Shown here: positions 2,787 through 14,759 of the stretch, one piece after another
How the letters are laid out: every line of letters starts with the position of its first letter
How positions within the stretch are numbered: the first letter of the stretch is position 1
Virus record (IMG/VR): IMGVR_UViG_3300008120_000372
Location: 1 to 26,814 of that record
Strand: one strand, 5' to 3'
DNA: 26,814 bases
DNA from: a virus
Translations under genes and position numbers: made by a program
Notes under the pieces: generated by a model
Seen by the model: only the letters and a program-made list of their open reading frames with translations
What the model was told of the DNA's origin: nothing
Databases searched by the model: none

Positions 2787-3131
2787 CTAAAGTCCGCGAA
2801 CGCCGCATTTTGAACAGAATTTCATCTTTTGTAATTGCTGCCATTCTGGATTGCAATCGGTTTTGCCGCAGGGTTGTATCAATCTCTCGCCGGTAGCCCA
2901 TTCCCGTACGACGTCAACTACGTCTGGTATTCCCTTCACAGCTTCTGGTGCAGCCGGCAACCCTCGTTCTTCCCGTATGTCGAGCAGTAGGCGCGCACCA
3001 ACCCAGTCTTGAATGCTGACGCCGAGCTTTTTGCAGTGGTCGACGATTTGGTTTTTGAGCCAACCAGGTATGACGACGTTTAGGTTGTATTTTCCGTCTG
3101 GGTCGTTAGCGCGTTGGGGTTCCAGAGGCAT
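2787..3131 (-). CDS. Ribbon-helix-helix-like protein with C-terminal zinc motif
   Basis: 114 residues from ATG 3131 (a TTG at 3143 is also in frame). Residues ~16-45 (LNVVIPGWLKNQIVDHCKKL followed by GVSIQDWVG) have the strand-helix-helix look of a ribbon-helix-helix DNA-binding domain. The C-terminus carries C..C (CGKTDC) and CSKC, compatible with a zinc ribbon. The start overlaps the end of the upstream ribbon-helix-helix gene by 26 nt, and the gene is last in a four-gene - strand operon. It converges with WhiB, seven bases from its stop. Function is inferred only at the level of DNA binding. Confidence 0.55.
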   Translation of the reverse strand: MPLEPQRANDPDGKYNLNVVIPGWLKNQIVDHCKKLGVSIQDWVGARLLLDIREERGLPAAPEAVKGIPDVVDVVREWATGERLIQPCGKTDCNPEWQQLQKMKFCSKCGVRGL

Positions 3132-3288
3132 CGCGTTCCACAAGTGTGAGCAGATATTCAGTGATGGTCATGTCGTAGCCATCAGCTAAATCGGTTATGA
3201 AGTTTTTCTTATCTGCCGGAATGCGAATGGTAATGGTAGAGAATTTACCAGTAGCTGTTTTTGTTGGGCGTCCCATGCGTTTGCGCAT
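3106..3288 (-). CDS. Ribbon-helix-helix DNA-binding protein
   Basis: 60 residues. After a basic N-terminus (RKRMGRPTK) comes STITIRIPADKKNFITDLAD, then GYDMTITEYLLTLVERD: a beta strand and two helices as in Arc/MetJ/CopG-type repressors. ATG 3288 is used here, but ATG 3276 (MGRPTK) is equally possible. It lies nine bases after the helicase-loader-like gene, in the same operon. It is a plausible autoregulator of the replication operon; the operator is not known, though the GTGAC-aaaa-GTCAC repeat at 4236-4249 by the operon promoter is a candidate. Confidence 0.65.
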   Translation of the reverse strand: MRKRMGRPTKTATGKFSTITIRIPADKKNFITDLADGYDMTITEYLLTLVERDASGTPTR

Positions 3289-3297
3289 GAGCGCATA

Positions 3298-3768
3298 TTA
3301 GTCCACAAAGGCGTATGCCTGGGACTCCCATTCTGTTACAACCGTTTTGTATACATCGAAGAATTGTGTTCTGTCGCCGTTTGTGTTGTGGGCGATATCG
3401 GCCAGTCCGCCCATTTTGTGGATAGTGGCCAGTACGCAGGGGTCGATTTCTCTTATGTCCACAGCGCCGCTTGTAACGCTTCTGGCGAGCTTCTGGACTT
3501 CTATCCAGGCGGCTGCTGGTTCTGGTGGTGGAACTAATTTACCGGATATTTGGATTGCTTTTTTTCGTACTTGTGATGGGCGAGGCATAAACGTTTCCGT
3601 TAAGGTGAGTTCACGTACTGCACGGGTTACCAAAGAGTGAGGTAAATCATGTAGTGCACTGTTCCACACCTCAAGTATTTCCTTCCGGTGTTTGGCCGTA
3701 CTTGTTAGGGTGGAATTCCAGTGTATGTAGATTTGTTTGACCGTATTTTCTAGTTCTTCTGAGTTCAC
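3298..3768 (-). CDS. Helicase-loader-like replication protein (G39P-type)
   Basis: 156 residues, GTG start overlapping the previous stop by one base (TAGTG). The N-terminal half reads W....L.dlphslV.rAvreLtLtetFmPrPsqvRkkA, the pattern of 'loader and inhibitor of phage G40P'-type proteins that hand the replicative helicase to the origin. The C-terminal ~50 residues (HKMGGLADIAHNTNGDRTQF and on) include an AxWxE-like stretch and a segment ending in FxxVYxxVVxEWE. The gene sits directly after the initiator-like gene, the usual order of origin binder then loader. The family call rests on motif shape alone. Confidence 0.5.
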   Translation of the reverse strand: MNSEELENTVKQIYIHWNSTLTSTAKHRKEILEVWNSALHDLPHSLVTRAVRELTLTETFMPRPSQVRKKAIQISGKLVPPPEPAAAWIEVQKLARSVTSGAVDIREIDPCVLATIHKMGGLADIAHNTNGDRTQFFDVYKTVVTEWESQAYAFVD

Positions 3769-4196
3769 TACTTTTCCTCCGCTACTTCTTCTACCACCGT
3801 CAGGTTACGGTAGTCGACGAGGTGCTGTCCGCGCAACTCTTCTGCATCCTGTTTGTTTTCCAGGTAGAGCTTTCCAAACTTAGCTACTCTCCATTTCTCT
3901 CCGTATCGAAGAATCAGTTCGATATTGGTGTAGCGCTTGAGGGCCGGATTGTCGCCCATATGGAATGGGGAGAAGTAGGCGCCAATGATTGCGCGCACGC
4001 ATGCTTCGAATCCGAAAGCCACTACAGCTACGGAGATGTCTTCTGCGCGTCTGGAGCTCAGCTGATGCCCCTTGCCCCTCTTTGACGTGTGTATGGCCTT
4101 CCAGAGCTCCCAGAGGGCCGTCACGGCTCCTGGAGGGACCGTAGCCGCTTGTTCGAGAACTGAATCAGGAATATTGCGGCGTTTAGCGGTAGGCAT
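3768..4196 (-). CDS. Replication initiator-like protein, leaderless
   Basis: 142 residues from ATG 4196. The middle reads AVVAFGFEACVRAIIGAYFS, then PFHMGDNPALKRYTNIELILR and KWRVAKFGKLYL. 'HMGxNpxxKrYTxxExilR' resembles the C-terminal DNA-binding part of phage replisome organiser/DnaD-like proteins. The upstream in-frame TTG at 4232 is rejected because its TTGACA is the -35 box: TTGACA, 17 bases, TATCCT, then seven bases to the ATG, giving a leaderless mRNA. First gene of a - strand replication operon (4196-2787), divergent from the candidate noncoding RNA at 4298-4803. Confidence 0.5.
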   Translation of the reverse strand: MPTAKRRNIPDSVLEQAATVPPGAVTALWELWKAIHTSKRGKGHQLSSRRAEDISVAVVAFGFEACVRAIIGAYFSPFHMGDNPALKRYTNIELILRYGEKWRVAKFGKLYLENKQDAEELRGQHLVDYRNLTVVEEVAEEK

Positions 4197-4203: not shown

Positions 4204-4232
4204 AGGATACAGGCTGCAGGAGGATATGTCAA
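4204..4232 (-). promoter_or_regulatory. Leaderless promoter of the replication operon
   Basis: On the - strand: TTGACA (4232-4227), 17-nt spacer, TATCCT (4209-4204), then seven bases to ATG 4196. Both boxes are close to consensus. No ribosome site fits in the space, so the start codon should be at or next to the 5' end of the RNA. Confidence 0.7.
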
Positions 4233-4235
4233 TGG

Positions 4236-4249
4236 GTGACAAAAGTCAC
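4236..4249. promoter_or_regulatory. Inverted repeat between divergent promoters (operator candidate)
   Basis: GTGAC-aaaa-GTCAC lies between the - strand -35 box (4227-4232) and the + strand -35 box (4262-4267), so one bound protein could control both. The neighbouring ribbon-helix-helix genes are natural candidates; this is inference. Confidence 0.4.
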
Positions 4250-4261
4250 AAAAAGTGATAC

Positions 4262-4291
4262 TTGACAGGGTCTAAAAATTTTGACTACATT
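4262..4291 (+). promoter_or_regulatory. + strand promoter with no protein gene downstream
   Basis: TTGACA (4262-4267), 18-nt spacer, TACATT (4286-4291). It points into about 500 bases with no convincing + strand reading frame that end in a strong + strand terminator at 4740-4803. Confidence 0.55.
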
Positions 4292-4579
4292 TCTTATTGG
4301 GGTTGGTAGTTATCCACGGGGATGACCCCTGGTTGAGAGACAAGTACTACGAGTAACTGGGAAGACGATACAGCCAGTAGTTGAGCGTGTCGGTAAAAAC
4401 ATTTGTTCTTCCGAAAATATGATTCACCCCTCGAAATGCGAGCGGCGATAGCCGCGCATTCTCGATGGGTAACGAGTTTGTACTACCAATCCCCCAATTT
4501 TTGCAGATGCGGGTTTTGGCCCGATTGACTTGTGAGTACTTGCGGCGCGCTTAAGGTGTATTGGGCGTCGATTGATGAC

Positions 4580-4690
4580 AGCTCTTCTTATTCCCCCGCC
4601 GGCCATCCGGCAAGCTCATCCGCCACCGTCGAAGTATTAGGCCAAATACGAGCCCCGTGGGGTTCCGCCGCAGCGAAAACCAGAAGAGCT
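4580..4690. repeat. 9-bp inverted repeat enclosing element copy 1
   Basis: AGCTCTTCT (4580-4588) and AGAAGAGCT (4682-4690) are exact reverse complements and bracket the whole of copy 1 (4616-4657). They could close a long stem in RNA from the 4262 promoter. The other copies do not show the same outer repeat. Confidence 0.4.
4616..4657 (+). repeat. Boundary element copy 1
   Basis: Core TCATCCGCCACCGTC (4616-4630), then AGCCCCG (4651-4657). The AAGAAGAT middle of later copies is missing; instead TATTAGGCCAAATA can form a small hairpin. Only this copy lies inside a putative + strand transcript. Confidence 0.8.
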
Positions 4691-4739
4691 ACTCTTTAAT
4701 GCGCTGCGGGGGGTTTCCCCTTCTCGCCTCCTGTGGCAA

Positions 4740-4803
4740 GTGGTGGGAGTTGTAGTCAAAGGTTGGTAGGTGGCCTGTTGACTCCTCCCACCACACTTTT
4801 TTT
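4740..4803 (+). terminator. Strong + strand intrinsic terminator
   Basis: Perfect 10-bp stem GTGGTGGGAG (4740-4749) / CTCCCACCAC (4785-4794), with an inner AGTCAA/TTGACT helix, followed by seven T's (4797-4803). There is no matching T-run for - strand transcription, so it is + directed. It overlaps the stop codon of the convergent Nmad1-like gene. Confidence 0.75.
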
Positions 4804-5296
4804 ATACGAGAGGCAATAAGAACAAGTCGTGTTCCCACATCATGCCGATTGCTGAGTAGCCGGCAATATCAAGAACTGTGTCAGAAATTGGTTCGTTTTG
4901 TGCTGAGGCAATTGTGCCGCTCTTTGTCAAGTTCTCGAGACGCGCGAGTTTGTCGTGTACTCGAATGATGAGGCCTTGCCGGCCGTATTTAGCAATGTTG
5001 TGATGTCCATAGTCCCGCTGCTTGCGAATCAACGTAGAAACCAGGACATCCGGTGTGATGTGGATGTTGTTGCTTTGTCCCCATTTGATTGCTTTTGAAC
5101 CAACTTCTCGCCAGAGTGCATGAACGTTTGTTTTGGCTTCTGTCGAATCAAACGTGGTGTCTCGAAAATATGACGTAGAAAGGCGTTCGAAGGACTGACG
5201 AATGCCAGCTACGACGACGAAGCTGTCTTCAACAGCCCCGAAGATACTTTCAGTTTTTTGTGCAGCGGCGTCATTCCACGTAGTAAGAGTAAGCAT
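4802..5296 (-). CDS. Nucleotide modification associated domain 1 (Nmad1)-like protein
   Basis: 164 residues. Residues 90-123 read IRKQRDYGHHNIAKYGRQ then GLIIRVHDKLARLENL, followed by EPISDTVLDIAGYSAIGMM (135-153). 'DYGhxNIxxfGrqGlixRxhDKxaRLxnL...D.xlDiaGYa.ig' is the signature of the phage Nmad1/DUF1599 family, predicted from phage gene neighbourhoods to take part in base-modification or nucleotide metabolism; its reaction is not established. No other base-modification gene is seen here. ATG 5296 has no ribosome site but lies six bases after a TAGAAA -10 box, so the message is probably leaderless. Confidence 0.75.
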   Translation of the reverse strand: MLTLTTWNDAAAQKTESIFGAVEDSFVVVAGIRQSFERLSTSYFRDTTFDSTEAKTNVHALWREVGSKAIKWGQSNNIHITPDVLVSTLIRKQRDYGHHNIAKYGRQGLIIRVHDKLARLENLTKSGTIASAQNEPISDTVLDIAGYSAIGMMWEHDLFLLPLV

Positions 5297-5302
5297 CTGA
5301 CA

Positions 5303-5332
5303 TTTCTATCACACGTCATACGCCACCGTCAA
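5303..5332 (-). promoter_or_regulatory. Leaderless promoter built on element copy 2
   Basis: - strand: TTGACG (5332-5327), 18-nt spacer, TAGAAA (5308-5303), six bases to ATG 5296. The -35 box and most of the spacer are the reverse complement of element copy 2, so the element supplies part of this promoter. Confidence 0.5.
5316..5330 (+). repeat. Boundary element copy 2 (short)
   Basis: Core TCATACGCCACCGTC only; no AAGAAGAT or AGCCCCG follows. It separates the Nmad1-like gene from the zinc-ribbon gene ending at 5349. Confidence 0.75.
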
Positions 5333-5348
5333 TTACTTAGCGATACTA

Positions 5349-5507
5349 CTAAGCAGTAAGAAGTTTTTTGACTTGCTCCATCAGGATGCGTCGAGTCGAG
5401 TGTGTTTTTGGATTGCTACAGATTGGCGCGCCGATTATTCCAACGTGCGTTGTTACTTGCGTTCCGCATTCCGCGCATCGCCAATGTTTAGTCTTGCCAT
5501 TTGCCAT
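5349..5507 (-). CDS. Small zinc-ribbon protein
   Basis: 52 residues from ATG 5507. It begins MANGKTKHWRCAECGTQ and continues GAPICSNPKTHSTRR: CxxC at 11-14, then C30 and H35 (CSNPKTH), consistent with a small zinc ribbon. A TACTAT box eight bases before the ATG suggests a leaderless or very short leader; no ribosome site is visible. Its function is unknown. A 64-codon + strand frame over the same bases is discarded because the zinc-binding pattern is on the - strand. Confidence 0.6.
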   Translation of the reverse strand: MANGKTKHWRCAECGTQVTTHVGIIGAPICSNPKTHSTRRILMEQVKKLLTA

Positions 5508-5583
5508 GGTTTTTTATAGTACACCAATAGTTATTAGTTCGATAGGACCGCAGCTAATATGATGCACATACACATGTAAGCAA

Positions 5584-5820
5584 TCATTGCCATCCTCTCC
5601 AGCTTCGACCCCAGCGGGGAGACGTCTTACGTAGGTAACGAGCCAGGCGCGGCGCGCGATTCTCAATCACCTCAGGGAGGATGATATGGACGACCAGGTC
5701 CAGCTTTCGAATAAATTTACACGGGGAACCGATTCGTAAACGGCTAACCGGCGGGAGCTCGAGGACGCGTGCTAGCTGCAGCGTCTCACGAAGACTCATA
5801 GCCTCATCCAGGTAGTTCAT
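5584..5820 (-). CDS. Hypothetical protein, basic
   Basis: 78 residues from ATG 5820 (ATG 5823 and 5799 are alternatives). AAGGGGG lies just upstream, and the start overlaps the end of the preceding - strand gene by 17 bases, suggesting coupling. The sequence is Arg/Leu-rich with a C-terminus of KTSPRWGRSWRGWQ; no family is recognised. Its reality rests on the overlap and ribosome site. Confidence 0.45.
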   Translation of the reverse strand: MNYLDEAMSLRETLQLARVLELPPVSRLRIGSPCKFIRKLDLVVHIILPEVIENRAPRLARYLRKTSPRWGRSWRGWQ

Positions 5821-6154
5821 CATCCCCCTTGGTTATCTTGCGCAGCGCGGACTTCACACTGGCCAGGGCCTGGTCTTGTATATGCTGCGGCTGGTTGGCG
5901 TACAGCTCGTTTAAAACAAAGCCAAGTACTTGTGTAGCTAATACTAGTTGACTGATTAACGTTAAGCCATGTTTTGCTGCAACTTCATCAATCTGATTCG
6001 CCGAGACGGCAAGTCGTTCTTCTTGCGATAACGCGGAGATATCGATGCATACGATGTCTTTTGTTAAGGGGAACCCAACACGTGTCAGTTTGTCATAAAT
6101 AAACACTGACTCCATCGACTGTTCGATATCTTCATCACTAAACATGAAGGTCAT
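5804..6154 (-). CDS. Hypothetical protein
   Basis: 116 residues. ATG 6154 lies inside the reverse complement of element copy 3 (GGTGGTGTATGACC); ATG 6145 (MFSDEDIE) is the alternative. Acidic N-terminus, a long helical middle (ERLAVSANQIDEVAAKHG then LTLISQLVLATQVLGFVL) and a short KITKGDDELPG tail. I recognise no domain. The gene is 26 bases downstream of the 93-residue gene and probably shares its transcript. Confidence 0.55.
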   Translation of the reverse strand: MTFMFSDEDIEQSMESVFIYDKLTRVGFPLTKDIVCIDISALSQEERLAVSANQIDEVAAKHGLTLISQLVLATQVLGFVLNELYANQPQHIQDQALASVKSALRKITKGDDELPG

Positions 6155-6165
6155 ACACCACCGTT
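6151..6165 (+). repeat. Boundary element copy 3 (short)
   Basis: Core variant TCATACACCACCGTT; the 3' half is missing. Its first four bases contain, on the - strand, the likely ATG of the gene ending at 5804, so here element and coding start overlap. Confidence 0.65.
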
Positions 6166-6180
6166 CGCTTTGCGATACTT

Positions 6181-6462
6181 CTATTTGACATAAACGATTT
6201 CCAATTGGGCCTTCTCTCGAGGGGACAGCACGTCGAGCTCATCGAAACCAAGGTCTTCGGCCGCCCACTCGAGTGCGATGTCGTGCAGCATGCAGAGAAT
6301 CTCTTCAGGCTCGGCACCCGGATGCGCCTGCAGCCAGGAGTTGACACGTTCAAATTCCTCATCCAGGATTCGTTCAAACATGTACACGCATTCTTTCCCA
6401 GTGGCTGGGGAGGTTACGTAAACACCGGTCGCGAATTCGCGCGGCAGCAGCAAAGTTCTCAC
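6181..6462 (-). CDS. Hypothetical acidic protein
   Basis: 93 residues starting with GTG 6462 in a 4-base overlap (GTGA) with the preceding gene. Very acidic: ERILDEEFERVNSWLQAH, then EPEEILCMLHDIALEWAAED. Mostly helical by composition, no transmembrane segment, no recognised family. Second gene of the 6890-6181 operon. Confidence 0.6.
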   Translation of the reverse strand: MRTLLLPREFATGVYVTSPATGKECVYMFERILDEEFERVNSWLQAHPGAEPEEILCMLHDIALEWAAEDLGFDELDVLSPREKAQLEIVYVK

Positions 6463-6890
6463 AGCCCGAAGTTCCCTTTCTCTACATCGACGTCCGCATT
6501 ACCCAGCACGCGCGCAGCGCCATCTCGGCTGTCTTTGCCATATGTCTGGGCAATCGCATCGCGCGCAACTTCGATTGCTTTCTCTCTGGTGGGTGCTGAT
6601 ACAACTTCAGTATTTGTGTACGTGAAGGTAACCGTCCACTGGGGATGACTCTTGTCCCAAGTTAAGTAGACGCCGTCTGTGCGTTCTTGAATTTCATCAA
6701 CATTGTCTCGAATGTGTCTGCAGCGAAGTTTAAGAAATATTGCCTGTTCATCTGGTGAGAGTTTGCTCCAGTTCTCAGGTAGGTCTCCTTCGCAGACGGA
6801 GTAATAACGCGTGATTAAATGCGTCTCGGTGAGTTCGACACGTGCTCGGATTTCCGATTCCCCCGTGGCGGTAAGTGGTCCAATAGACAT
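6459..6890 (-). CDS. Hypothetical protein
   Basis: 143 residues from ATG 6890, preceded by a perfect AGGAGG at a good distance and by the promoter at 6928-6956. The middle reads GVYLTWDKSHPQWTVTFTYT, then APTREKAIEVARDAIAQTYG, which looks like a strand-rich domain followed by a helix; no family is recognised. First gene of a two- or three-gene - strand operon. Confidence 0.65.
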   Translation of the reverse strand: MSIGPLTATGESEIRARVELTETHLITRYYSVCEGDLPENWSKLSPDEQAIFLKLRCRHIRDNVDEIQERTDGVYLTWDKSHPQWTVTFTYTNTEVVSAPTREKAIEVARDAIAQTYGKDSRDGAARVLGNADVDVEKGNFGL

Positions 6891-6927
6891 TGCCTAAGCC
6901 TCCTCGTTGATGGCTATTTGTGTTAGT

Positions 6928-6956
6928 AACTTACATTTAAATTGATTGTTTGTCAA
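6928..6956 (-). promoter_or_regulatory. Promoter of the 6890-6181 operon
   Basis: - strand TTGACA (6956-6951), 17-nt spacer, TAAGTT (6933-6928). The -35 box is one base from element copy 4. Confidence 0.65.
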
Positions 6957-6957
6957 G

Positions 6958-6972
6958 TCATCCACCACCGTT
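6958..6972 (+). repeat. Boundary element copy 4 (short)
   Basis: Core variant TCATCCACCACCGTT without the 3' half. It fills the gap between the stop of the 6976-7338 gene and the promoter of the next operon. Confidence 0.7.
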
Positions 6973-6975
6973 CGG

Positions 6976-7338
6976 TTAGCCCGGTGATAAAAGAGTCTTG
7001 GCAAAAAGCGCATTGTCATCGCCGCGCAGCATCGACTCGAGGACCTCGAGCGCGCCTTTACGCCACTTCGAGGTTGGACCTCCAAGGAGTCTCGAGACCA
7101 ATCGCATGGACGCGTACTCGGGGATACAGACATTGCGCCAGTTCAGTGGGCACTCTTTAAAGTTGCGTGGCTGCAGTTGTTTACCTAGGCGCTGTTCCAG
7201 GCAGCCAATACAGAGCATTCCGTCGTAGGCTCCCATCCCAGCACGAGCCCAACAGGCGTCGGTGACCATGTAGTACTCGGCAATCTCCATGCAGTCGACG
7301 CCACAGTCGACGCAGTCCGCGGTGTCGTAACAGGTCAT
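6976..7338 (-). CDS. Cysteine-rich (zinc-binding) hypothetical protein
   Basis: 120 residues. The N-terminus has several Cys pairs: CVDCGVDC (9-16), DACW, then LCIGCLEQRLGKQL, giving two CxxC knuckles, followed by PRNFKECPLN. The pattern 'CxxCGxxxx...WxxaGm...LCigCLExRLGrxL' resembles a conserved phage/actinobacterial zinc protein of unknown function. It starts in a 4-base overlap (ATGA) with the upstream gene and is the last gene of the 8147-6976 operon. Confidence 0.65.
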   Translation of the reverse strand: MTCYDTADCVDCGVDCMEIAEYYMVTDACWARAGMGAYDGMLCIGCLEQRLGKQLQPRNFKECPLNWRNVCIPEYASMRLVSRLLGGPTSKWRKGALEVLESMLRGDDNALFAKTLLSPG

Positions 7339-7547
7339 ATGTTTCCCCAGTTGCAGCCGTCATTTGGCGCTCCACCGAACTCTGGATTCGTGCAGGTCAA
7401 CCACACTGGGTAGAACTTGCCATCAAGTTCGTCAGGAACGAAACAGCAGTGCCAGCACGGGAGACCACCGTTTCTGTAGCCCTCTCGATAGAAGTAGATG
7501 CGTGCTCGAAGCACCATCCAGTAGCGGTAAATCTCATTCAGAATCAT
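7335..7547 (-). CDS. Hypothetical Cys/Trp-rich small protein
   Basis: 70 residues from ATG 7547, chosen because AAGGAG lies nine bases upstream; longer in-frame starts run into the neighbouring gene. After YWMVLRARIYFYREGY come LPCWHCCF and LTCTNPEF and CNW, so a metal site is possible. No family is recognised. It overlaps both neighbours in the operon. Confidence 0.6.
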   Translation of the reverse strand: MILNEIYRYWMVLRARIYFYREGYRNGGLPCWHCCFVPDELDGKFYPVWLTCTNPEFGGAPNDGCNWGNI

Positions 7548-7785
7548 CTGCTTCTCCTTGCTCGTCATCAATTGCGTAGTTGAATTCTGCTGCAGCGTAA
7601 ATGATTGTTTCCCACATCTCTTTGGCTGCATACATTTCCTCGTCCGAAGAGAAGAACCATTCAAGTGATTTGGATTGCTCACCGTCAACAAACGAGACAC
7701 TGATTCCCCATGGCTCAGTTTTTGTTTCTGAATGCGAAATTAATTTGACTGTACGTGGTGTGCTGGTTATTGGTGTATTAAGCAT
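7534..7785 (-). CDS. Hypothetical protein
   Basis: 83 residues from ATG 7785 with GGAGAAGAAG just before it. Strand-rich N-terminus (TVKLISHSETKTEPWGISVSF) and acidic, helical C-terminus ending DDEQGEADDSE. The start overlaps the previous stop by 8 bases and its own end overlaps the next gene by 14. No recognised domain. Confidence 0.6.
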   Translation of the reverse strand: MLNTPITSTPRTVKLISHSETKTEPWGISVSFVDGEQSKSLEWFFSSDEEMYAAKEMWETIIYAAAEFNYAIDDEQGEADDSE

Positions 7786-7975
7786 CTTCTTCTCCGTTTT
7801 CTGCGTAGTCAGAAATAGCCGAGATGAAATCAAGACCCTCGGTCATCATCAGACAGTCTGCGTCTTTGTATGCCTGTTCTGGCGTGTAGGTGCCAGATTT
7901 GACATCTTCCAAGATGCCGCTCAGGACATGGATGGCGTGTTCCAGACTTTCTTTCACATCATTGAGCGAGGACAT
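7778..7975 (-). CDS. Hypothetical acidic helical protein
   Basis: 65 residues from ATG 7975, preceded by GAGGAGAGG. MSSLNDVKESLEHAIHVLSG then ILEDVKSGTYTPEQAYKDAD looks all-helical, ending in ENGEEDA. Overlaps both neighbours in the 8147-6976 operon. Unknown function. Confidence 0.6.
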   Translation of the reverse strand: MSSLNDVKESLEHAIHVLSGILEDVKSGTYTPEQAYKDADCLMMTEGLDFISAISDYAENGEEDA

Positions 7976-8147
7976 TGACCTCTCCTCTAATGATGTGGAC
8001 ATTGATGCTGCTCATGATGTCCTGATTTGGAAAGCGTTCTTCCATGAGTCCACGATTTCCGTAATAGAAATCAGCACACATGGTCTCAACGATTTCCTCA
8101 GGGTCTAACTCATCGGGCACCGTTAGTCGTAGGTATAGTTCTCGCAT
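7959..8147 (-). CDS. Hypothetical small protein, first gene of operon
   Basis: 62 residues from ATG 8147 after TAGGAGAAGT. LYLRLTVPDELDPEEIVETM followed by NVHIIRGEVNVL suggests a small alpha/beta fold. It is the first gene behind the promoter at 8181-8210, whose start region carries an 8-bp inverted repeat. Unknown function. Confidence 0.6.
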   Translation of the reverse strand: MRELYLRLTVPDELDPEEIVETMCADFYYGNRGLMEERFPNQDIMSSINVHIIRGEVNVLAQ

Positions 8148-8171
8148 ACTTCTCCTAGTTAGATAGTTACT

Positions 8172-8194
8172 GTGGGGTGCACCCTACACCCCAC
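8172..8194. promoter_or_regulatory. 8-bp inverted repeat at the -10 region (operator candidate)
   Basis: GTGGGGTG (8172-8179) and CACCCCAC (8187-8194) are exact reverse complements, 7 bases apart. They flank the TAGGGT -10 box of the - strand promoter. No T-run follows on either strand, so this is more likely an operator than a terminator. Confidence 0.5.
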
Positions 8195-8210
8195 CATTAC
8201 TGAATGTCAA
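8181..8210 (-). promoter_or_regulatory. Promoter of the 8147-6976 operon
   Basis: - strand TTGACA (8210-8205), 18-nt spacer, TAGGGT (8186-8181). The -35 box overlaps the stop codon of the upstream gene. Confidence 0.6.
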
Positions 8211-8428
8211 GCGTTTACTTCAGTGACTGTTGTCACGCGATGGCGCTCAACCCATTTCTCGCCCGAGCCGTTAACTGGCTGCACGAGAAGGTCAATGTGC
8301 CCGAAACGCGTTCGTACGTCATTGATGCGAACACTGACGGTGAGGTCGTCCAAGGTCATGGCTGCGGTCTTGCCAATAAGACTTCTTGGGTTGACTTTCT
8401 CAACATCTTGCTTCGTGTAGGTCTTCAT
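8207..8428 (-). CDS. Hypothetical protein
   Basis: 73 residues from ATG 8428, with AAGGAG eight bases upstream and its own promoter (8450-8478). The sequence (TLDDLTVSVRINDVRTRFGH then IDLLVQPVNGSGEKWVERHR) is strand-rich and could be a small OB- or Tudor-like barrel, but no family is recognised. Confidence 0.6.
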   Translation of the reverse strand: MKTYTKQDVEKVNPRSLIGKTAAMTLDDLTVSVRINDVRTRFGHIDLLVQPVNGSGEKWVERHRVTTVTEVNA

Positions 8429-8449
8429 GATGTCTCCTTTCAGCAGTGC

Positions 8450-8478
8450 ACAGTACAGGTGTCAACGCCAATTTGCAA
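8450..8478 (-). promoter_or_regulatory. Promoter of the 8207-8428 gene
   Basis: - strand TTGCAA (8478-8473), 17-nt spacer, TACTGT (8455-8450), then 21 bases to ATG 8428. Confidence 0.5.
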
Positions 8479-8514
8479 CCCCAGCCAAATATTCCCTCGA
8501 GCGGACGGCCCACG

Positions 8515-8562
8515 TCATCCGCCACCGTCGAATAAACCGGATGGCCCGGAATGCGAGCCCCG
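8515..8562 (+). repeat. Boundary element copy 5
   Basis: Core TCATCCGCCACCGTC (8515-8529) and AGCCCCG (8556-8562), which can pair with TGGGGTT just downstream. It lies between the divergent genes at 8428 and 8657. A GC-rich hairpin GCCGGC-tgcg-GCCGGC (8602-8617) follows. Confidence 0.8.
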
Positions 8563-8656
8563 TATTTCTGGGGTTTTCGCCTGGCCGGCCCTCGAGCTGC
8601 TGCCGGCTGCGGCCGGCTTCCGCCAGAACAAGTAGTTGTGTATTAGCCTCTTGACT

Positions 8657-9046
8657 ATGAGAACATCAGAGAAATGGTCAAGAAACATAAAGGCTTTGGA
8701 ACAGTTTGTGAACCAGAATGGACACGCACTCGTTCCAGCATCTGCAAAGGTGGAAGTTGATGGGGTCATTGTGTCGCTTGGCTCATGGGTGAGTTATCTC
8801 CGCATGAAACATCGTTCAGGAAGGCTGGCGCAAGACCGCCAAGCCCAACTCGAGCAGTTCCCGCGTTGGTCGTGGGGGCCGTGCAAGCCGGGGCCGACAG
8901 GCGACGCTCAGCGTGATGAAGCGATGTTGCTTGCCAGAAACTCTGGTCGGTCACTACAAAGTATCGCCGACGAATACGGCTTGTCTCGTCAGCGAGTTCA
9001 TCAGATACTTCGTCGCACTCGCAAACCTGCGTTGGCAAATGCCTAA
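8657..9046 (+). CDS. Helicase-associated domain plus sigma4-type HTH regulator
   Basis: 129 residues from ATG 8657. Residues ~9-75 (FVNQNGHALVPASAKV, LGSWVSYLRMKHRSGRL, LEQFPRWSWGP) match the helicase-associated (HA) repeat: 'f...nGha.Vp......g..Lg.Wv...R...r.g.L......Le...gw.W'. Residues 86-120 (DEAMLLARNSGRSLQSIADE, then YGLSRQRVHQILRR) match a sigma-70 region 4-type helix-turn-helix. A single HA repeat plus a DNA-binding tail, with no helicase core, suggests a DNA-binding regulator or adaptor. A TAGCCT box seven bases before the ATG would give a leaderless message. It overlaps the next gene by 8 bases. Confidence 0.7.
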   Translation: MRTSEKWSRNIKALEQFVNQNGHALVPASAKVEVDGVIVSLGSWVSYLRMKHRSGRLAQDRQAQLEQFPRWSWGPCKPGPTGDAQRDEAMLLARNSGRSLQSIADEYGLSRQRVHQILRRTRKPALANA

Positions 9047-9293
9047 TCAGTTTCCCAAAGTCAGACCATACCCAGACCCAGAACACAAGACGATAAGCAG
9101 TATCCTGCTTACAACTCTTGGTGGGTTGGCGTTAGCAGGGGCTATCTATGGGCTAAGCCTGTGGGGTTTATTGCTTGTGTTGAGACAAGCAGATGTTATT
9201 AGCGAAATCGTGTCGTACCGTTGGTGCGTCGTTATTTCCTACATCTATGTCTTGGTTCGTTCATACGACAAGCAGTTGTTCTCAAAGAAGTAA
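9039..9293 (+). CDS. Small two-helix membrane protein
   Basis: 84 residues from ATG 9039, inside the end of the preceding gene (8-base overlap). After a proline-rich N-terminus (PNQFPKVRPYPDPEH) there are two hydrophobic stretches: about residues 19-49 (ILLTTLGGLALAGAIYGL and on) and 60-75 (RWCVVISYIYVLV), ending in the basic KKX tail SYDKQLFSKK. Inner-membrane protein of unknown function; a holin-like or exclusion role cannot be argued from sequence alone. Confidence 0.6.
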   Translation: MPNQFPKVRPYPDPEHKTISSILLTTLGGLALAGAIYGLSLWGLLLVLRQADVISEIVSYRWCVVISYIYVLVRSYDKQLFSKK

Positions 9294-9295
9294 GG

Positions 9296-9310
9296 TCATA
9301 CGCCACCGTC
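9296..9310 (+). repeat. Boundary element copy 6 (short)
   Basis: Core TCATACGCCACCGTC. It fills most of the 23-nt gap between two convergent genes (stops at 9293 and 9317), with no hairpin terminator there. Confidence 0.75.
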
Positions 9311-9316
9311 AAATGG

Positions 9317-9493
9317 TTAGTATGAAACCAAGTGGTCAATGCTGGTTAGGTATTCACCTGCTTCGTCGGTGAGTTCATAAAGTCGTTTGCGTAGAGCGTG
9401 AAGAACTTTGTCTCGTTCGTTTTCCCACGCTTCTCGTGGGTCGGCGTGTTCGCAGTCAGGTACTACGAACGATACAGAGAAGATGTGGTTCAC
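9317..9493 (-). CDS. Hypothetical protein
   Basis: 58 residues from GTG 9493 in a 4-base overlap (GTGA) with the upstream 45-residue gene. Reads NHIFSVSFVVPDCEHADPRE, then a helical AWENERDKVLHALRKRLYEL and TDEAGEYLTSIDHLVSY. No family is recognised. The start coupling and protein-like composition support it. Confidence 0.6.
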   Translation of the reverse strand: MNHIFSVSFVVPDCEHADPREAWENERDKVLHALRKRLYELTDEAGEYLTSIDHLVSY

Positions 9494-9627
9494 TCTATTG
9501 GTGGGTTCATCTTGGCGAGTTGCTCACCTATCGCTCTCAACAGACTGTCTGGTTCTGCTTGGAGTGCGTGGTTGAGAACCTCTTTTAGTTTCTTGCGTTC
9601 CTCTGGCGTGAGTTCTGTATCACTCAT
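9490..9627 (-). CDS. Hypothetical small helical protein
   Basis: 45 residues from ATG 9627 with AGGTAGGGG before it: MSDTELTPEERKKLKEVLNH then ALQAEPDSLLRAIGEQLAKM. Charged, helical, no recognised family. Coupled to the next gene by GTGA. It could be transcribed with the MoxR/VWA genes upstream or separately; no clear promoter is seen. Confidence 0.55.
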   Translation of the reverse strand: MSDTELTPEERKKLKEVLNHALQAEPDSLLRAIGEQLAKMNPPIE

Positions 9628-9697
9628 TTTTGCCCCTACCTCTGTATCAAGTCGTTCGCTAACTCGGCTGTAATCGCTTCCTATTGCGTGTTTTTTC

Positions 9698-9739
9698 GGG
9701 CTAGTCGGGGGAGTAAGCGTGTTTTCACCCGACTAGCCC
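9698..9739. repeat. 12-bp perfect inverted repeat after the VWA gene
   Basis: GGGCTAGTCGGG (9698-9709) and CCCGACTAGCCC (9728-9739) form a perfect stem 10 bases beyond the stop of the 9750-11363 gene. On the - strand an A-run, not a T-run, follows, so it is not a standard terminator; it may still end transcription or protect the 3' end. The loop and left flank share GCGTGTTTT. Confidence 0.6.
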
Positions 9740-9749
9740 TATCTCGGCT

Positions 9750-11363
9750 CTATCGCAAGACGAGAGTTCGGTTGGTCACTTCTTTGTATGTTGTCGCCAA
9801 TAGTTCGGGGATAACACTTGTGACCTTTTCACGGCGTTGGATTTTTTTCAGAAGTTCTATTGCGTCTGCTGGCGTTGGCACGACAAAGACATTTTCTTTC
9901 TGACAGAACTTGATAACTTCCATTACCAAGTCCACGCACCAAGTATCACTCTTTCCCGTCACTCCACCATCTGAAACCCAGATGACAGGTGAAGTCGGGC
10001 GTTGCTTACTCTTGACTGCCCAACGCAACGCTGGCAAGTCCACTTCGTTCATACCGTTCGGGCTAGGAAGGTACTCGCACATCTTGCCCTTGTTCGCTAT
10101 GACATACAGGTTCGGGCGAGTACGAGAGCCACCTGAATACTGCGCTACGAGAGCCGACGGTGCGTGAAGCACGATTTGTTTCACTTGGTCAGATGTCAGA
10201 GACATAGAGCCACTCGTATCTACGAGTACCACTCCACCTTCGCCCTTCACTACACGGTCAAAGATACGACGCTCTGGGTCTGTGAGTAGGCGAGCCATAC
10301 GGCGTGGGTTGCGACCCGTCGGTGACGCAATACGCTTTTTGCCGATAGCACCAATGACATTACGCACCAATGGTGGATTACCGATTTTCAGCGTTCCCCA
10401 ACTGTCGGGTGCGCCACGACTAGGTACTGTGCCACGACCCCAATGCTGACGCTCGGTTCGGTGAGACTTGCCCGACTTGGAGATGGCTTTTAGCAACTTG
10501 GACAGTTCACTTCCGTCACCGTCATCATCTTCTCCCTCGTCGGACTTCTTGCCCTTGCCCTTGCCTTTGCCTTTGCCTTTCTTGCCTTCGGCTTCTGCGC
10601 CCTCTTGGGTCTTTTCTGGCTTGGGTGGTGGCGTACCGATAGCACCGACCATTTGTTCCACCCACTTAGCGAGTTGCTCTGTGTAGCCGAAACCGTGTTC
10701 GGGTGCTTTATTCCCTGTGGCAGAAAGGTCTGGGATTTTTCGCCAAGTCTGTTCCTCTTTGTCTGCCTTGTCGTTGCGCTCACGAATAGAGTTGTAGAAC
10801 TTCACACCGTTTTCGGTGATTTTAGAAAGAACTTCTACCCACTCTGGGCGAACCTGTCCGACACCTGCCAGAAACGGCTCTAATCCAGCCGTGTTGCCTA
10901 GCGAGATACTCGCCAAGACTGCTGTTTGGAAGTCGTTATGCGTAGCCATTTGGATACCATTTCGCATTTCCGAACCGTCTTGTAAGTGTAGGTGTGGCTC
11001 AAAGCCAGCGTCACGCATAAGCGTATTTACTCGCAACTCCTCACAAGCCGTGAGTGTGCGCTCACCTGCCCACTTTCGCTTAGTCCAGATTTTTTCCCAT
11101 TGTTTCGTAGTTGGCGAAACTTTGGCATGGAACATTTCGTGCGCTCGGACATGGCGTGAGTGTTCGTCGTCATAAGTCGGAACGAACATCTGTCGCTCTG
11201 CTACTGCCGTCTTTGGCTCACCTGCCTGTGCGCTAGACGAGTGGATAGTCCACTTGCCAGCGTCGGTGTCATTACGACGCAACATCTCTGCGTCTGGAAC
11301 TACCTGAGTGGGGGTTGTGACCCCCACTACTTGATAGCCGTTATTTGTTTCGTTCTTGGACAT
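9750..11363 (-). CDS. VWA protein with N-terminal HExxH metallopeptidase-like domain
   Basis: 537 residues from ATG 11363, coupled to the AAA+ gene by a one-base overlap (TGATG) with AAAAAGG upstream. The N-terminal domain has HEMFH (75-79), with CEELRVN (107-113) offering a third ligand: a zincin-like layout as in the putative metallopeptidase/VWA-like (DUF2201) family. A low-complexity Lys/Gly linker (about 250-285, six KG repeats) leads to a VWA domain with MIDAS motif DTSGS (382-386) and VSDGG (463-467). VWA proteins of this type work with MoxR/CobS ATPases as metal-insertion or remodelling machines. Whether the HExxH is catalytic is unknown. The target is not identified. Confidence 0.8.
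   Translation of the reverse strand: MSKNETNNGYQVVGVTTPTQVVPDAEMLRRNDTDAGKWTIHSSSAQAGEPKTAVAERQMFVPTYDDEHSRHVRAHEMFHAKVSPTTKQWEKIWTKRKWAGERTLTACEELRVNTLMRDAGFEPHLHLQDGSEMRNGIQMATHNDFQTAVLASISLGNTAGLEPFLAGVGQVRPEWVEVLSKITENGVKFYNSIRERNDKADKEEQTWRKIPDLSATGNKAPEHGFGYTEQLAKWVEQMVGAIGTPPPKPEKTQEGAEAEGKKGKGKGKGKGKKSDEGEDDDGDGSELSKLLKAISKSGKSHRTERQHWGRGTVPSRGAPDSWGTLKIGNPPLVRNVIGAIGKKRIASPTGRNPRRMARLLTDPERRIFDRVVKGEGGVVLVDTSGSMSLTSDQVKQIVLHAPSALVAQYSGGSRTRPNLYVIANKGKMCEYLPSPNGMNEVDLPALRWAVKSKQRPTSPVIWVSDGGVTGKSDTWCVDLVMEVIKFCQKENVFVVPTPADAIELLKKIQRREKVTSVIPELLATTYKEVTNRTLVLR
10548..10585. repeat. Hexanucleotide repeat in the VWA gene linker
   Basis: About six imperfect tandem copies of TTGCCY (+ strand), encoding alternating Lys-Gly in the linker at about residues 261-273. 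Such a tract can change length by slippage in six-base steps, which would lengthen the linker without shifting frame. Confidence 0.6.
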
Positions 11364-12100
11364 CAGACAACCTTTTTGCCTGTGTCCACTTGGATAGCGT
11401 CAAGGAACGATTTTGCTCGGTTGCCGAACACGATTTCTGCCGACTTCTTTGCGCCAAGTGAAGTTCGCAACTTGTCGTATGCGTAGAAAGAACGCAACGA
11501 GATACGACGCTCACCAGCGTCACACATCTGACGAGCGTAATCACGCAAGTCCTCGCTCATACGCAAGAGTGCTTCGGGGTGTGGCTCGTTGATACGAATA
11601 GCAACGGGGAAACGGTCTTTGAGTGCCATTGGCAACTCGTTCATGTCCTCAACATTGGTAGTCATCACAACGGAGAAGCCCTCTAATGGCTTGATTACCT
11701 TGTGTGTCTGTGGGTGTTCCCATTGTGCGCTCTCTGGCGTGTCGGTAATGGCGAGAAGTGTTGCGAACACATCACCACCAGCCTTGTCTATTTCGTCAAT
11801 GACCAGACGACCACCGACTTTGCCGTTGCCTTGCCACGCCTTGATACCTGCGCCTTCCAGCCACGACCACGAACCCGACGCTGTTGGTTGCCAGCAACCT
11901 GTCACATCTGCGTTGGTCATTTCGTCGGTACAAATAAGACGGTGTGCGCCACCATCAAGTTTGCCGTAGTTCAGACCTGCGTAGGTCTTGCCGACACCTG
12001 CTGTGCCGAACAGGATTACACGGTCTATTCCTGCTTCTAGTGCGTCTTGGACAGTCTGCCAGCATTTCGGCAGAGCGTTGGCTTGCTTTACTTTCGTCAT
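11363..12100 (-). CDS. MoxR/CobS-type AAA+ ATPase
   Basis: 245 residues from ATG 12100 after AAGGAG. Walker A GTAGVGKT (32-39), Walker B LVIDEID (99-105), sensor-1 TTN (147-149) and ALKDRF (159-164, arginine-finger region) are all present. CTDEMTNADVTGCW (57-70) is the MoxR-type stretch after the first strand. The protein is short, lacking most of the C-terminal lid, as in phage CobS-like ATPases. It is coupled to the VWA/HExxH gene, the standard MoxR-VWA partnership in which the ATPase drives the VWA partner. Own promoter at 12133-12161. Confidence 0.88.
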   Translation of the reverse strand: MTKVKQANALPKCWQTVQDALEAGIDRVILFGTAGVGKTYAGLNYGKLDGGAHRLICTDEMTNADVTGCWQPTASGSWSWLEGAGIKAWQGNGKVGGRLVIDEIDKAGGDVFATLLAITDTPESAQWEHPQTHKVIKPLEGFSVVMTTNVEDMNELPMALKDRFPVAIRINEPHPEALLRMSEDLRDYARQMCDAGERRISLRSFYAYDKLRTSLGAKKSAEIVFGNRAKSFLDAIQVDTGKKVV

Positions 12101-12132
12101 TTGCTTACTCCTTGTAAGTGTTAGGTATTGCG

Positions 12133-12161
12133 ATAGTAGTTATTTATTTGATAGTTGTCAA
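12133..12161 (-). promoter_or_regulatory. Promoter of the MoxR-VWA operon
   Basis: - strand TTGACA (12161-12156), 17-nt spacer, TACTAT (12138-12133), followed by a 32-base leader with AAGGAG before ATG 12100. Confidence 0.75.
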
Positions 12162-12222
12162 GTATTGGAAAGTGGCGTACTCGCCTTACCTACGACGAGT
12201 ACGCCACTCACCTTCTGTCGGA

Positions 12223-12642
12223 CTAAGCCGACTTCTGGGAAGTGGTGGTTTCTGCCACCTGTGACTTCTTGGCTTCGGGCGAGAGTGCGTACACACGCAC
12301 CTGTGAACTTGGCTTGACGGTAGAAACTTCGTCTGCCGTGAGTTGGTCAATAAGACCGACTGCGAGAGCCGACTTCATCAAGTCCTTGTCCACGACTGCC
12401 TTCGTGACCTTACGGAACACGGTGGGCTTGACGACCTGCGCCAACTTATCTGCGTCGTAGGTGACGGTGACGACATCTACGACTTGGACTGACTGACCAT
12501 CTACGACGACTTCGTTCACTCCGACGCTTGCCAGAGCCTTACGGAGTTCCGTTTCGGCTTCCTTCTTTGCCTTCTCTGCTTCCTGAAACGCCTGTCGTGC
12601 GTTCAGAAACAGTCTTGCTGTTTGTTCCATTGAGAGTGCCAT
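12223..12642 (-). CDS. Hypothetical coiled-coil protein
   Basis: 139 residues from ATG 12642 (AAGGAAAGAACA upstream; a longer frame to 12696 crosses the promoter). N-terminal helix QTARLFLNARQAFQEAEKAK continues into KKEAETELRKALASVG, a likely coiled coil, then a strand-rich part (VVVDGQSVQVVDVVTVTYD) and TVFRKVTKAVVDKDLMKSAL. Ser/Gln/Thr-rich tail. No recognised family. It is just upstream of MoxR on the same strand but has its own promoter, so it may be a third member of that module. Confidence 0.65.
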   Translation of the reverse strand: MALSMEQTARLFLNARQAFQEAEKAKKEAETELRKALASVGVNEVVVDGQSVQVVDVVTVTYDADKLAQVVKPTVFRKVTKAVVDKDLMKSALAVGLIDQLTADEVSTVKPSSQVRVYALSPEAKKSQVAETTTSQKSA

Positions 12643-12680
12643 TGTTCTTTCCTTCCTTGTAGGTGTGTATGGCACTATGT

Positions 12681-12710
12681 AAGGTACAGGGCGCAATAGC
12701 CCTTCGTCAA
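12681..12710 (-). promoter_or_regulatory. Promoter of the coiled-coil protein gene
   Basis: - strand TTGACG (12710-12705), 18-nt spacer, TACCTT (12686-12681), then 38 bases to ATG 12642. Confidence 0.6.
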
Positions 12711-12731
12711 GTGTTTAGCGTGTGAACTTCG

Positions 12732-12887
12732 TCACTCGTCACGAAAGCGTGAAACACGGTCACGACACAGGTACTTGGCAGTCTGCTTGCGTCGGTCAAG
12801 AAAGCGCACAGCACGAAACCGAAACCCGTCAGCGAACGCCTGACGCTCTGGGTCAGACCACACGGCTTTGATTTTGCGCTTACTCAT
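12732..12887 (-). CDS. Small basic protein, leaderless
   Basis: 51 residues from ATG 12887: MSKRKIKAVWSDPERQAFAD then GFRFRAVRFLDRRKQTAKYL and CRDRVSRFRDE. Strongly basic, possibly nucleic-acid binding; no family is recognised. The start is fixed by TTGCTT-N17-TACAAT six bases upstream, so a longer frame to 12983 that runs through this promoter and element copy 7 is rejected. Confidence 0.6.
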   Translation of the reverse strand: MSKRKIKAVWSDPERQAFADGFRFRAVRFLDRRKQTAKYLCRDRVSRFRDE

Positions 12888-12893
12888 AAGACC

Positions 12894-12922
12894 ATTGTAT
12901 CTAATCGCTACTTGGCAAGCAA
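12894..12922 (-). promoter_or_regulatory. Leaderless promoter of the 51-residue gene
   Basis: - strand TTGCTT (12922-12917), 17-nt spacer, TACAAT (12899-12894), six bases to ATG 12887. Confidence 0.65.
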
Positions 12923-12963
12923 CTATTGCTCGGTGAGTTAGTGCTAAATCCAACCCCTGCCCT

Positions 12964-12995
12964 TCATACACCACCGTCGGCAAGTGCGAGCCCCG
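12964..12995 (+). repeat. Boundary element copy 7
   Basis: Core TCATACACCACCGTC (12964-12978), AGCCCCG (12989-12995). The middle is shorter than in later copies. A CGGGGCTT about 18 bases further on can pair with the AGCCCCG. Between the divergent genes 12887 and 13112. Confidence 0.8.
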
Positions 12996-13111
12996 TGTGG
13001 CGGCGGCGGGGGGCGGGGCTTCCAGATGTCCGACGGCGCAGTTGCCGTCTGGTCTGGACTAAATCCAAATCTAGACATCACACATCTGGTCGGTGTGTGC
13101 GTAAAGAAGGC

Positions 13112-13393
13112 ATGGAACACGAACCAAGCAACTACACAGCAACCATTACCCTTGACTTTCAGCAACTCATGGAAGTCCGTAAGGCGATTACAGATAGAGT
13201 GGCAAAGTATTTCCTCGCCACAGACGACGAGTACCCTTATCGCAAAGACGACCTAGTGACGCTGAACCGAACAGCGCAAATGCTGGACAGCCACATAGAC
13301 AGAGCCGTAGCCGAGTGGGAACGCAAGGTGGCGCAAGACGAAGCGAGCCTGATGACCGACGAAGCCATTGAGAAGTGGCTAGGTGACGAATAA
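13112..13393 (+). CDS. Hypothetical helical protein
   Basis: 93 residues from ATG 13112 with AAAGAAGG before it; the longer frame to 12926 crosses copy 7 and is rejected. TATITLDFQQLMEVRKAITD, then charged helices (LNRTAQMLDSHIDRAVAEWE and on) and an acidic end (EAIEKWLGDE). No recognised family; no clear promoter box found upstream. Confidence 0.6.
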   Translation: MEHEPSNYTATITLDFQQLMEVRKAITDRVAKYFLATDDEYPYRKDDLVTLNRTAQMLDSHIDRAVAEWERKVAQDEASLMTDEAIEKWLGDE

Positions 13394-13406
13394 CACAGGA
13401 AATGAC

Positions 13407-13435
13407 TTGACTTCCCTACACCTATTACTTACAAT
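13407..13435 (+). promoter_or_regulatory. Promoter of the 13466 gene
   Basis: TTGACT (13407-13412), 17-nt spacer, TACAAT (13430-13435). Leader with AAGGGG before ATG 13466. Confidence 0.75.
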
Positions 13436-13465
13436 AGACACACAACCAACTAGAAGGGGTTAGGT

Positions 13466-14494
13466 ATGAATAACGAAGAAATCCTCACCGTGTGCGCCAA
13501 GCAGACGGTAGAGATGACGAAGCATGGCAAGACAGAAGTTTGCCGAGACAACAAGGGTGCGTCTGATGTACCCCCATTTGTCGTGGTCGGCATGGAAGTC
13601 CAAGATGATGACGGCAACCAAGCAATAGGTGGTGGCATTATTCAGATGGACTTAGAGAACGGTAATCACCCTGTTGATGAACTTCCCTATGTTCTAAGCG
13701 ACCTTCACCAAGAAGGCATGACCGACTTCATGTGGCTTATGTTCGTGACCGAAGGGTACGCCCGACGCACAGACATTACAGACATTACCGAAGCAGACCT
13801 CAACGCACCTCGTGGAACTTTGGAAAAGGAGTTTGCCGAGAAGCCCGATACGAACATTTGCGAAGGCATTATCGCAACCCTATTCGCCAAGTCGGGCGAA
13901 GCAGTCACGGCTACCTGTTTCTACAAGTACGGTGATGACGGACTTCCCGTGTACGAAGAAGCCGAATACACCTATTGCGACGGTGGTGACGAGAACAAGC
14001 CACAGGGTCTTGTGGCAGATACCTTTGGTGCGTTTATGAAGTATTGCGAAGCATGGGATACTCTCAACGAAGCAAGCCAAGCCGTACAGAACTCCGACAA
14101 CCCATTGTTCACAAAGGAAGATGTTGCGTCGCTTGACATGAAGAAAATGCCGAACTTCCTGACCGTATGGCAGGTGTTCACCGACGACCTTCCCAACAGC
14201 AAGAAGGTTGCCAAGAAGATGAAGGAACAGGTAGCAGAGTTTATGAGCAAGTCCTTCATGCTGAAAGTGACGAAAGAGTGCTGGCAAGCCATAACAGATA
14301 AATCCGAGAAGGGCGAACTTGACCTTGACGCATTTATGGCGAAAATGGAAATCGTGATGACGGGTACTGATGAAGAAGCCAAAGAGAACTTCATAGCCGA
14401 ACTCACGAAATCATACAGCGTTTCAGCACAGGCACTTATGTTCGCATTGGGTAAGAGCCAAGTACCTGATGACATTTCTGGGTTGGTCGGGTAG
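13466..14494 (+). CDS. Hypothetical acidic protein, 342 residues
   Basis: Largest unknown protein of the cassette region. Very acidic, with DD/EE clusters throughout, no transmembrane segment and no recognised motif. The first 70 residues contain PPFVVVGMEVQDDDGNQAIG, the middle LPYVLSDLHQEGMTDFMWLM, and the C-terminal half is helical (SKKVAKKMKEQVAEFMSKSF, LDAFMAKMEIVMTGTDEEAK). It has its own consensus promoter, AAGGGG ribosome site and hairpin terminator, so it is a self-contained transcription unit. High acidity may mean a DNA-mimic or protein-binding role, but that is speculation. Confidence 0.75.
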   Translation: MNNEEILTVCAKQTVEMTKHGKTEVCRDNKGASDVPPFVVVGMEVQDDDGNQAIGGGIIQMDLENGNHPVDELPYVLSDLHQEGMTDFMWLMFVTEGYARRTDITDITEADLNAPRGTLEKEFAEKPDTNICEGIIATLFAKSGEAVTATCFYKYGDDGLPVYEEAEYTYCDGGDENKPQGLVADTFGAFMKYCEAWDTLNEASQAVQNSDNPLFTKEDVASLDMKKMPNFLTVWQVFTDDLPNSKKVAKKMKEQVAEFMSKSFMLKVTKECWQAITDKSEKGELDLDAFMAKMEIVMTGTDEEAKENFIAELTKSYSVSAQALMFALGKSQVPDDISGLVG

Positions 14495-14526
14495 TCACCC
14501 TTCTTACTTCCCACACTCCCAGAACA

Positions 14527-14566
14527 GGGCGCACTCTCCGAAAGGGGGGTGCGCCCTTCTTCTTTG
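14527..14566 (+). terminator. Terminator of the 13466 gene
   Basis: GGGCGCAC (14527-14534) / GTGCGCCC (14549-14556), then TTCTTCTTTG. The same stem sequence recurs in the terminators at 15323 and 20217. Confidence 0.75.
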
Positions 14567-14573
14567 TACCCAC

Positions 14574-14623
14574 TCATACGCCACCGTCGTAAGAAGATAA
14601 ACGGGGGACACCTGACAGCCCCG
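14574..14623 (+). repeat. Boundary element copy 8
   Basis: Core TCATACGCCACCGTC (14574-14588), GTAAGAAGAT, then AGCCCCG (14617-14623). AGCCCCG lies in the loop of GGGACA (14605-14610) / TGTCCC (14630-14635). Confidence 0.85.
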
Positions 14624-14664
14624 GGCAGATGTCCCTAGATGTCCCAGAAGAACTCAGGTCTGGT

Positions 14665-14701: not shown

Positions 14702-14759
14702 AAGTTTGCCTCGCAACCTGTTAGGTGCGCCCAAGTATCGCAAGTCACAGCGAAATGAC

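Follow-up and report, generated by a model that had tools for sequence, protein, structure and literature searches.

RNA II of ColE1 is a structured transcript of ~500 nt that acts as a primer precursor. In cluster A mycobacteriophages, the 400–500-bp regions beside parA from which a noncoding RNA is expressed proved both necessary and sufficient for the prophage to replicate (Wetzel et al., 2020; PMC7157519), and in lambda it was the activity of the oop promoter that mattered, the oop RNA itself being of little importance for replication (PMC3985674). GOLLD is a large phage RNA in which the 3' part is conserved and the 5' part varies (PMC12286853).

The DNA analyzed here (the window) is a whole IMG/VR virus record of 26,814 bp; related records reach 160 and 172 kb. 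A gene for a structured non-coding RNA occupies positions 4298–4803 of its plus strand, with the 5' end inferred from a promoter and the 3' end given by the T-run of a terminator. Similar to the cluster A origins (Alma, LadyBird, RedRock, Gladiator and Et2Brutus; PMC7157519), it is a phage non-coding RNA of ~400–500 bp transcribed away from the genes of the next module; those origins belong to actinobacterial phages, and an actinobacterial host is likely for the window phage as well, judging from our reading of the ORF at 2456–2779 as WhiB-like. In contrast to the cluster A origins, which have parABS as a neighbor and no initiator protein, the window RNA adjoins an initiator and a helicase loader. 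With the lambda O/P module and its pO/oop region (PMC3985674) the locus has in common a terminated RNA that is transcribed next to, and in the opposite direction from, the initiator gene, and a loader whose predicted fold is most similar to lambda P, but the oop RNA is short and antisense to cII, while the window RNA is ~500 nt long, strongly structured and antisense to no gene. An antisense RNA of the oop type was rejected, because no opposite-strand gene overlaps the RNA and the candidate ORFs are broken in relatives. GOLLD and ROOL are likewise large structured phage RNAs, whose function is not established, and the conserved 3' and variable 5' parts recur as in GOLLD; these RNAs are, however, often found near tRNA islands, while the window RNA adjoins an initiator gene and gave no match to their covariance models. 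As a structured transcript of ~500 nt and a plausible primer precursor it also resembles ColE1 RNA II, but ColE1 does without an initiator protein and possesses RNA I, an antisense RNA, and neither matches the window RNA.

Both ends of the gene had been proposed in an earlier sequence-only reading of the window. The predicted promoter (TTGACA-18-TACATT, 4262–4291, plus strand) is present as a consensus match, but promoter-like sites occurred at chance level (3 in 3 kb versus 3.2 in shuffles) and the match alone is therefore no evidence; it is the conservation in close relatives that speaks for it, the hexamers being kept or improved (TTGACA..TATATT) in the 79% identical L021, L024 and L025. 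The strong plus-strand terminator at the 3' end was confirmed as an unusual, bulged hairpin of 55 nt (4740–4794) followed by T7, with -30.6 kcal/mol the second strongest among the plus-strand candidates of the window and with a stem maintained by compensatory changes. A simple terminator scan missed it, probably owing to the internal bulges. The gene converging on the 3' end from the minus strand (4802–5296) has homologues in crAss-like phages annotated as DUF1599, and the earlier remark that the terminator is of no use to this gene was correct. At the 5' side, an inverted repeat, GGTGACAAAAGTCACAAAAAGTGAT, lies between the two divergent promoters (4230–4262) and is partly retained in relatives; it is a possible operator through which the RNA and the initiator operon would both be controlled.

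The absence of a convincing plus-strand gene in 4298–4803, also stated by that reading, held in the alignment of group A (A1: the window, L021, L024, L025, L052 and L053). All nine frames of at least 25 aa, on either strand, were frameshifted or had lost their start or stop in relatives, while blocks of sequence remained nearly invariant despite the broken ORFs. Conservation of codon structure, named in advance as an observation that would speak against an RNA, was looked for and none was seen, the ORFs drifting as non-coding sequence. The local hairpins are present: the region had a minimum free energy of -192.8 kcal/mol (z -3.3), and 0 of 100 shuffles folded as low. Since the minus strand folded as well (z -3.8), the strand of the RNA cannot be told from fold energy alone. 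This was decided by the 3' domain, in which a plus-strand reading of 24 sequences gave 125 G-U pairs versus 25 C-A mismatches, indicating that the plus strand is the functional structured RNA. The RNA is single-copy, with one confident match per record. As the drift of the ORFs agrees with the covariation seen across independent lineages, with a model search that left out the group of the window and with deep positional conservation (below), we regard its existence and structure as nearly certain.

The conserved 3' domain (4699–4801, plus strand) includes Stem A and Stem B. The strongly covarying Stem A (4703–4737) carries a C-rich apical loop (UUUCCCCUUCU), while Stem B (4740–4794) has a conserved UU bulge and a conserved apical loop GUAGG, is followed by the T-run and doubles as the intrinsic terminator. 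Homologues of the RNA region were reached via the neighboring genes in four further phage groups, which folded into this 3' domain too, with the C-rich Stem A loop and with the UU bulge and the loop GUAGGU in Stem B; on individual folding, Stem B was present in every sequence and Stem A in most. A search for homologues and a covariation check had been suggested by the sequence-only reading, and both gave positive results. In a sequence-only MAFFT alignment of the first 14 sequences, 21 of 36 pairs were changed on both sides, with a covariation score of 0.362 against 0.201 ± 0.017 in shuffles (0/500 as good) and of at most 0.172 when the partner was slid by 1–3 columns. A second set, of ten representatives of new lineages not used for model building, showed covariation in 30 of the 36 pairs (again 0/500 shuffles as good), although this alignment was fitted to the model and thus leaned towards the model structure; the two sets together make up the 24 sequences used above for the strand. 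A covariance model trained on group C alone, i.e. without the group of the window (R2), matched the window at 4699–4801 with an E-value of 4.5e-10; for the other groups the values ranged from 7e-8 to 3e-4, all E-values of the covariance models being rough, since they came from short calibrations.

An initiator-gene search yielded 80 loci, many of which gave no match to the 3' domain. Among the loci not used before, model R1 found it in L152, L136, L124, L122, L147, L121, L143 and L144 (E 7e-12 to 6e-5), in L132 (E 0.001) and in L177–L180 (E 0.03), in each case on the strand that points away from the initiator. RNAalifold on a mixed alignment produced a poor structure because MAFFT had shifted Stem A between the groups; this misalignment was resolved via individual folds and alignment to the covariance model. 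Three diverged relatives (L054, L055 and L063) have a 5' motif ACTTTGG..GAACCTTT together with a 3' hairpin of another kind, and models R1, R2 and R3 did not find the 3' domain in them.

While the 3' domain is common to all subtypes, the 5' domain is lineage-specific. Group A, including the window, has its own 5' domain with two helices. The long-range helix P1, which would close it (4299–4310 pairing with 4482–4493), has 12 pairs in the window and is weakly supported, by one compensatory change and by pairing in 78% of the cells of six relatives. The long hairpin P2 (4426–4470; CCCC.TCGAAATGCG..GCGGC / GCCGC..GCATT.TCGA.GGG) had 95% of cells paired and one compensatory pair, its sequence being nearly invariant within the group. 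Further downstream, a 9-bp inverted repeat noticed earlier around a dispersed-element copy does exist (AGCTCTTCT at 4580–4588 and AGAAGAGCT at 4682–4690) and, with 87% of cells paired, is largely retained in relatives. The type I RNA, which occurs in groups C to E and most of the new lineages and in a shorter form in groups F and G, is recognized by a 5' signature CUUUGGAGGGGGUYCGGGGGAACCUUU, and the type II RNA (L026, L028, L121 and L124) by another conserved 5' block. The type I signature, searched as UUUGGARGGGGUYCGGGGRAACCUUU, is absent from the window; in type I it is nearly invariant (TTTGGARGGGGTYCGGGGRAACCTTT) over very different phages (L207, L191, L239, L209 and others; 72 stretches). 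Its part GGAGGGGG and the Stem A loop CCCCCUUU are complementary in sequence, so that the two may form a pseudoknot in type I, which covariation cannot test because signature and loop are both nearly invariant.

The genes divergent from the RNA form a replication operon on the minus strand. The first (3768–4196) belongs to a replication-initiation protein family: all 14 family members matched the PHROG 'replication initiation protein' (best 1e-17; the copy of the window alone gave 0.09), while Foldseek found no match for the initiator. The second (3298–3768) encodes a helicase-loader-like protein, 11 of 13 members matching the PHROG 'helicase loader' (best 4.2e-8); the match to Pfam G39P was weak, and the three best PDB matches of the predicted loader fold were all lambda P (E 0.06–0.5). 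Two further small genes (3106–3288 and 2787–3143), spanning 2787–3288, are conserved with the operon. In 14 of 14 aligned initiator loci the RNA region lies back-to-back with the initiator gene, which is followed by the loader gene, and the RNA was divergent upstream of the initiator both in the starting groups and in the new initiator loci. The strongest test of this linkage was a scan of IMG/VR with the 26-nt type I 5' signature, in which no protein criterion was applied. It returned 72 stretches (45 distinct contexts) against an expectation of ~0.0002 for an assumed collection size of 44–58 Gb. Three of the 72 had no flank, and in 68 of the 69 testable contigs a divergent initiator was located within 300 nt of the signature; the sole real exception, L242, had ample flank and no initiator, and in our reading looks like a chance match inside coding sequence. 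The 3' domain was on the strand of the signature and ended 304–427 nt downstream of it in 54 of 55 matches (35 at E ≤0.01), and a few of the signature contigs with such a match had been in the model. Linkage this strong across such divergence argues for a task shared by the RNA and the initiator.

The RNA also contains, at 4616–4630, a copy of a dispersed element (TCATCCGCCACCGTC); groups A to G, and several but not all of the new lineages, carry one inside their RNA. The window has 18 copies of this element (TCATMCGCCACCGTC) at gene boundaries from 4616 to 23136, often followed by NNAAGAAGAT and AGCCCCG, all on the plus strand irrespective of gene direction, and often 650–830 bp apart with one promoter-gene-terminator unit in between. 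In the 160-kb relative the copies are restricted to a single 20-kb zone, again in one orientation. Compared to window positions 22457–23136, four relatives (L006, L008, L011 and L018) carry an extra element-bounded unit, with two copies matching 22457–22800, and gene units thus seem, from sequence comparison, to be gained or lost at the elements; an integron-like cassette array is an idea worth testing for this zone. L019 is nearly 100% identical to 20412–26814 of the window, save for an extra ~127 bp (L019 6104–6230) at 21713/21714 that contains the inverted repeat GTGTTGCCATAGCAACAC. The element zone further includes five iteron-like 17-nt direct repeats GGTGTGACGCCNGACAC with 20–38 bp spacing (22588–22718). 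Elsewhere in the window, a large minus-strand gene (9750–11363) lies beside a gene for an AAA_5-type ATPase (11363–12100); the two (9750–12100), which we read as a pair, resemble a MoxR/von Willebrand-type pair.

Comparison with known families was negative throughout. No RNA family of Rfam matched the whole window at the gathering score; for the RNA region at a permissive E-value the best match had 19 bits versus a cut-off of 87, with neither GOLLD nor ROOL, and eleven related loci gave no match save for a tRNA elsewhere. No tRNA genes were found in the window. Among 50,697 records of isolated phages there was no DNA match for the region or for the group C RNA and no tblastn match for the loader, and the type I signature produced only matches of E ~3. 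The species-genome collection gave five pattern hits, none with the 3' domain; the best, L100, was rejected as a partial match (0.0019) lying inside open reading frames. With the first two DNA patterns designed for the 3' domain, most hits were chance matches or contigs already known. No paper describing the RNA was found in the open-access literature, the scope of that search. We file it as a new family, among the replication-linked or large phage non-coding RNAs, in a new arrangement of RNA, initiator and loader. The window RNA shows its defining features, namely Stem A, Stem B with the UU bulge and the GUAGGU loop, and the position divergent from the initiator gene, and members are widespread among contigs of uncultured phages, the longest of 172 kb.

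An origin-linked role, raised in the sequence-only reading, stood in one part and failed in another. It is favored by the adjoining initiator and loader families and by the 68/69 linkage, but the DnaA-box and GC-skew evidence did not support it. The proposed origin mark, TTATCCACG at 4310, does exist, but is one of 19 DnaA-like 9-mers (up to one mismatch allowed) scattered over the window and is lost in L052 and L053; with no cluster of boxes, a DnaA-box origin was rejected. The GC skew had no turn at the RNA over the 80 kb examined of the 160-kb relative, and neither the initiator gene nor the sequence adjoining the RNA contained iterons.

Judged from its position, a replication role of some sort is probable for the RNA. 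The best explanation is by analogy: it would work like the cluster A RNA-linked origins without being a member of them, the sequences having been compared through the phage-collection search, which gave no match. For a component or regulator of replication initiation acting as follows, we would put the probability at about 0.5. The RNA would be transcribed from the divergent promoter in the origin region, folding as it emerges. It could then act at the origin, either through transcriptional activation or by forming an RNA:DNA hybrid, to be opened or to serve as a primer, as the helicase is recruited by initiator and loader; or it could bind the initiator or loader and thereby set timing and copy number. 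Stem B would end the transcript ahead of a collision with the convergent gene at 4802. Counting against this explanation are the missing iterons, DnaA-box cluster and GC-skew turn, the presence here of an initiator, which is absent at the cluster A RNA-linked origins, and a window 5' domain unlike the one in the sister subtype; the analogous oop RNA of lambda, of little importance beside its promoter, is a further caution. More tentatively, these phages may constitute an undescribed replicon class in which an O-like initiator and a P/G39P-like loader operate jointly with a large structured RNA; the RNA might, for instance, be bound at the origin and reach its active fold through pairing of the G-rich 5' signature with the C-rich Stem A loop.

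The same synteny would result if the RNA were a regulator of the replication operon, sequestering the initiator or loader, or pairing with their mRNA in trans, and so timing or limiting replication from an origin elsewhere. Its conserved single-stranded loops (the C-rich loop of Stem A and GUAGGU of Stem B) resemble binding sites, and the close 5' ends, with inverted repeats in the spacer (4230–4262), permit co-regulation; however, the RNA is divergent from the initiator gene and not antisense to it, which makes classical cis-antisense copy control inapplicable, and we consider such a regulator doubtful. The conserved unpaired loops and the replication-module context would also suit a host-takeover RNA directed at host targets and carried in the early replication module through shared early expression, but this is improbable, since the loops are conserved even between lineages whose hosts probably differ.

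Equally improbable is a large ornate RNA of the GOLLD/ROOL kind, late and oligomeric, with a merely historical place beside the initiator: size, phage origin and the conserved 3' and variable 5' parts do resemble GOLLD (PMC12286853) and Rfam offered no smaller known RNA, but no lineage scanned matched GOLLD or ROOL, the tRNA islands often found near those RNAs have no counterpart among the genes found in the window, and the linkage to the initiator is nearly absolute. A DNA-level element, i.e. a folded single-stranded origin or recombination site followed by an ordinary terminator and giving an RNA with no function, is very improbable. Base pairing would be selected in single-stranded DNA too and the region does contain the dispersed element, which is DNA-like in behavior; nevertheless, there are five G-U pairs for every C-A mismatch on the plus strand, and the conserved structure ends in a terminator of the same direction, its promoter being conserved in group A.

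The phages carrying this RNA family, which is absent from Rfam, have an uncharacterized replication. The nearly absolute linkage of the RNA to the initiator provides a concrete and testable case for an RNA in the replication of a large phage group, and the target is compact, with ~500 nt and two small genes.
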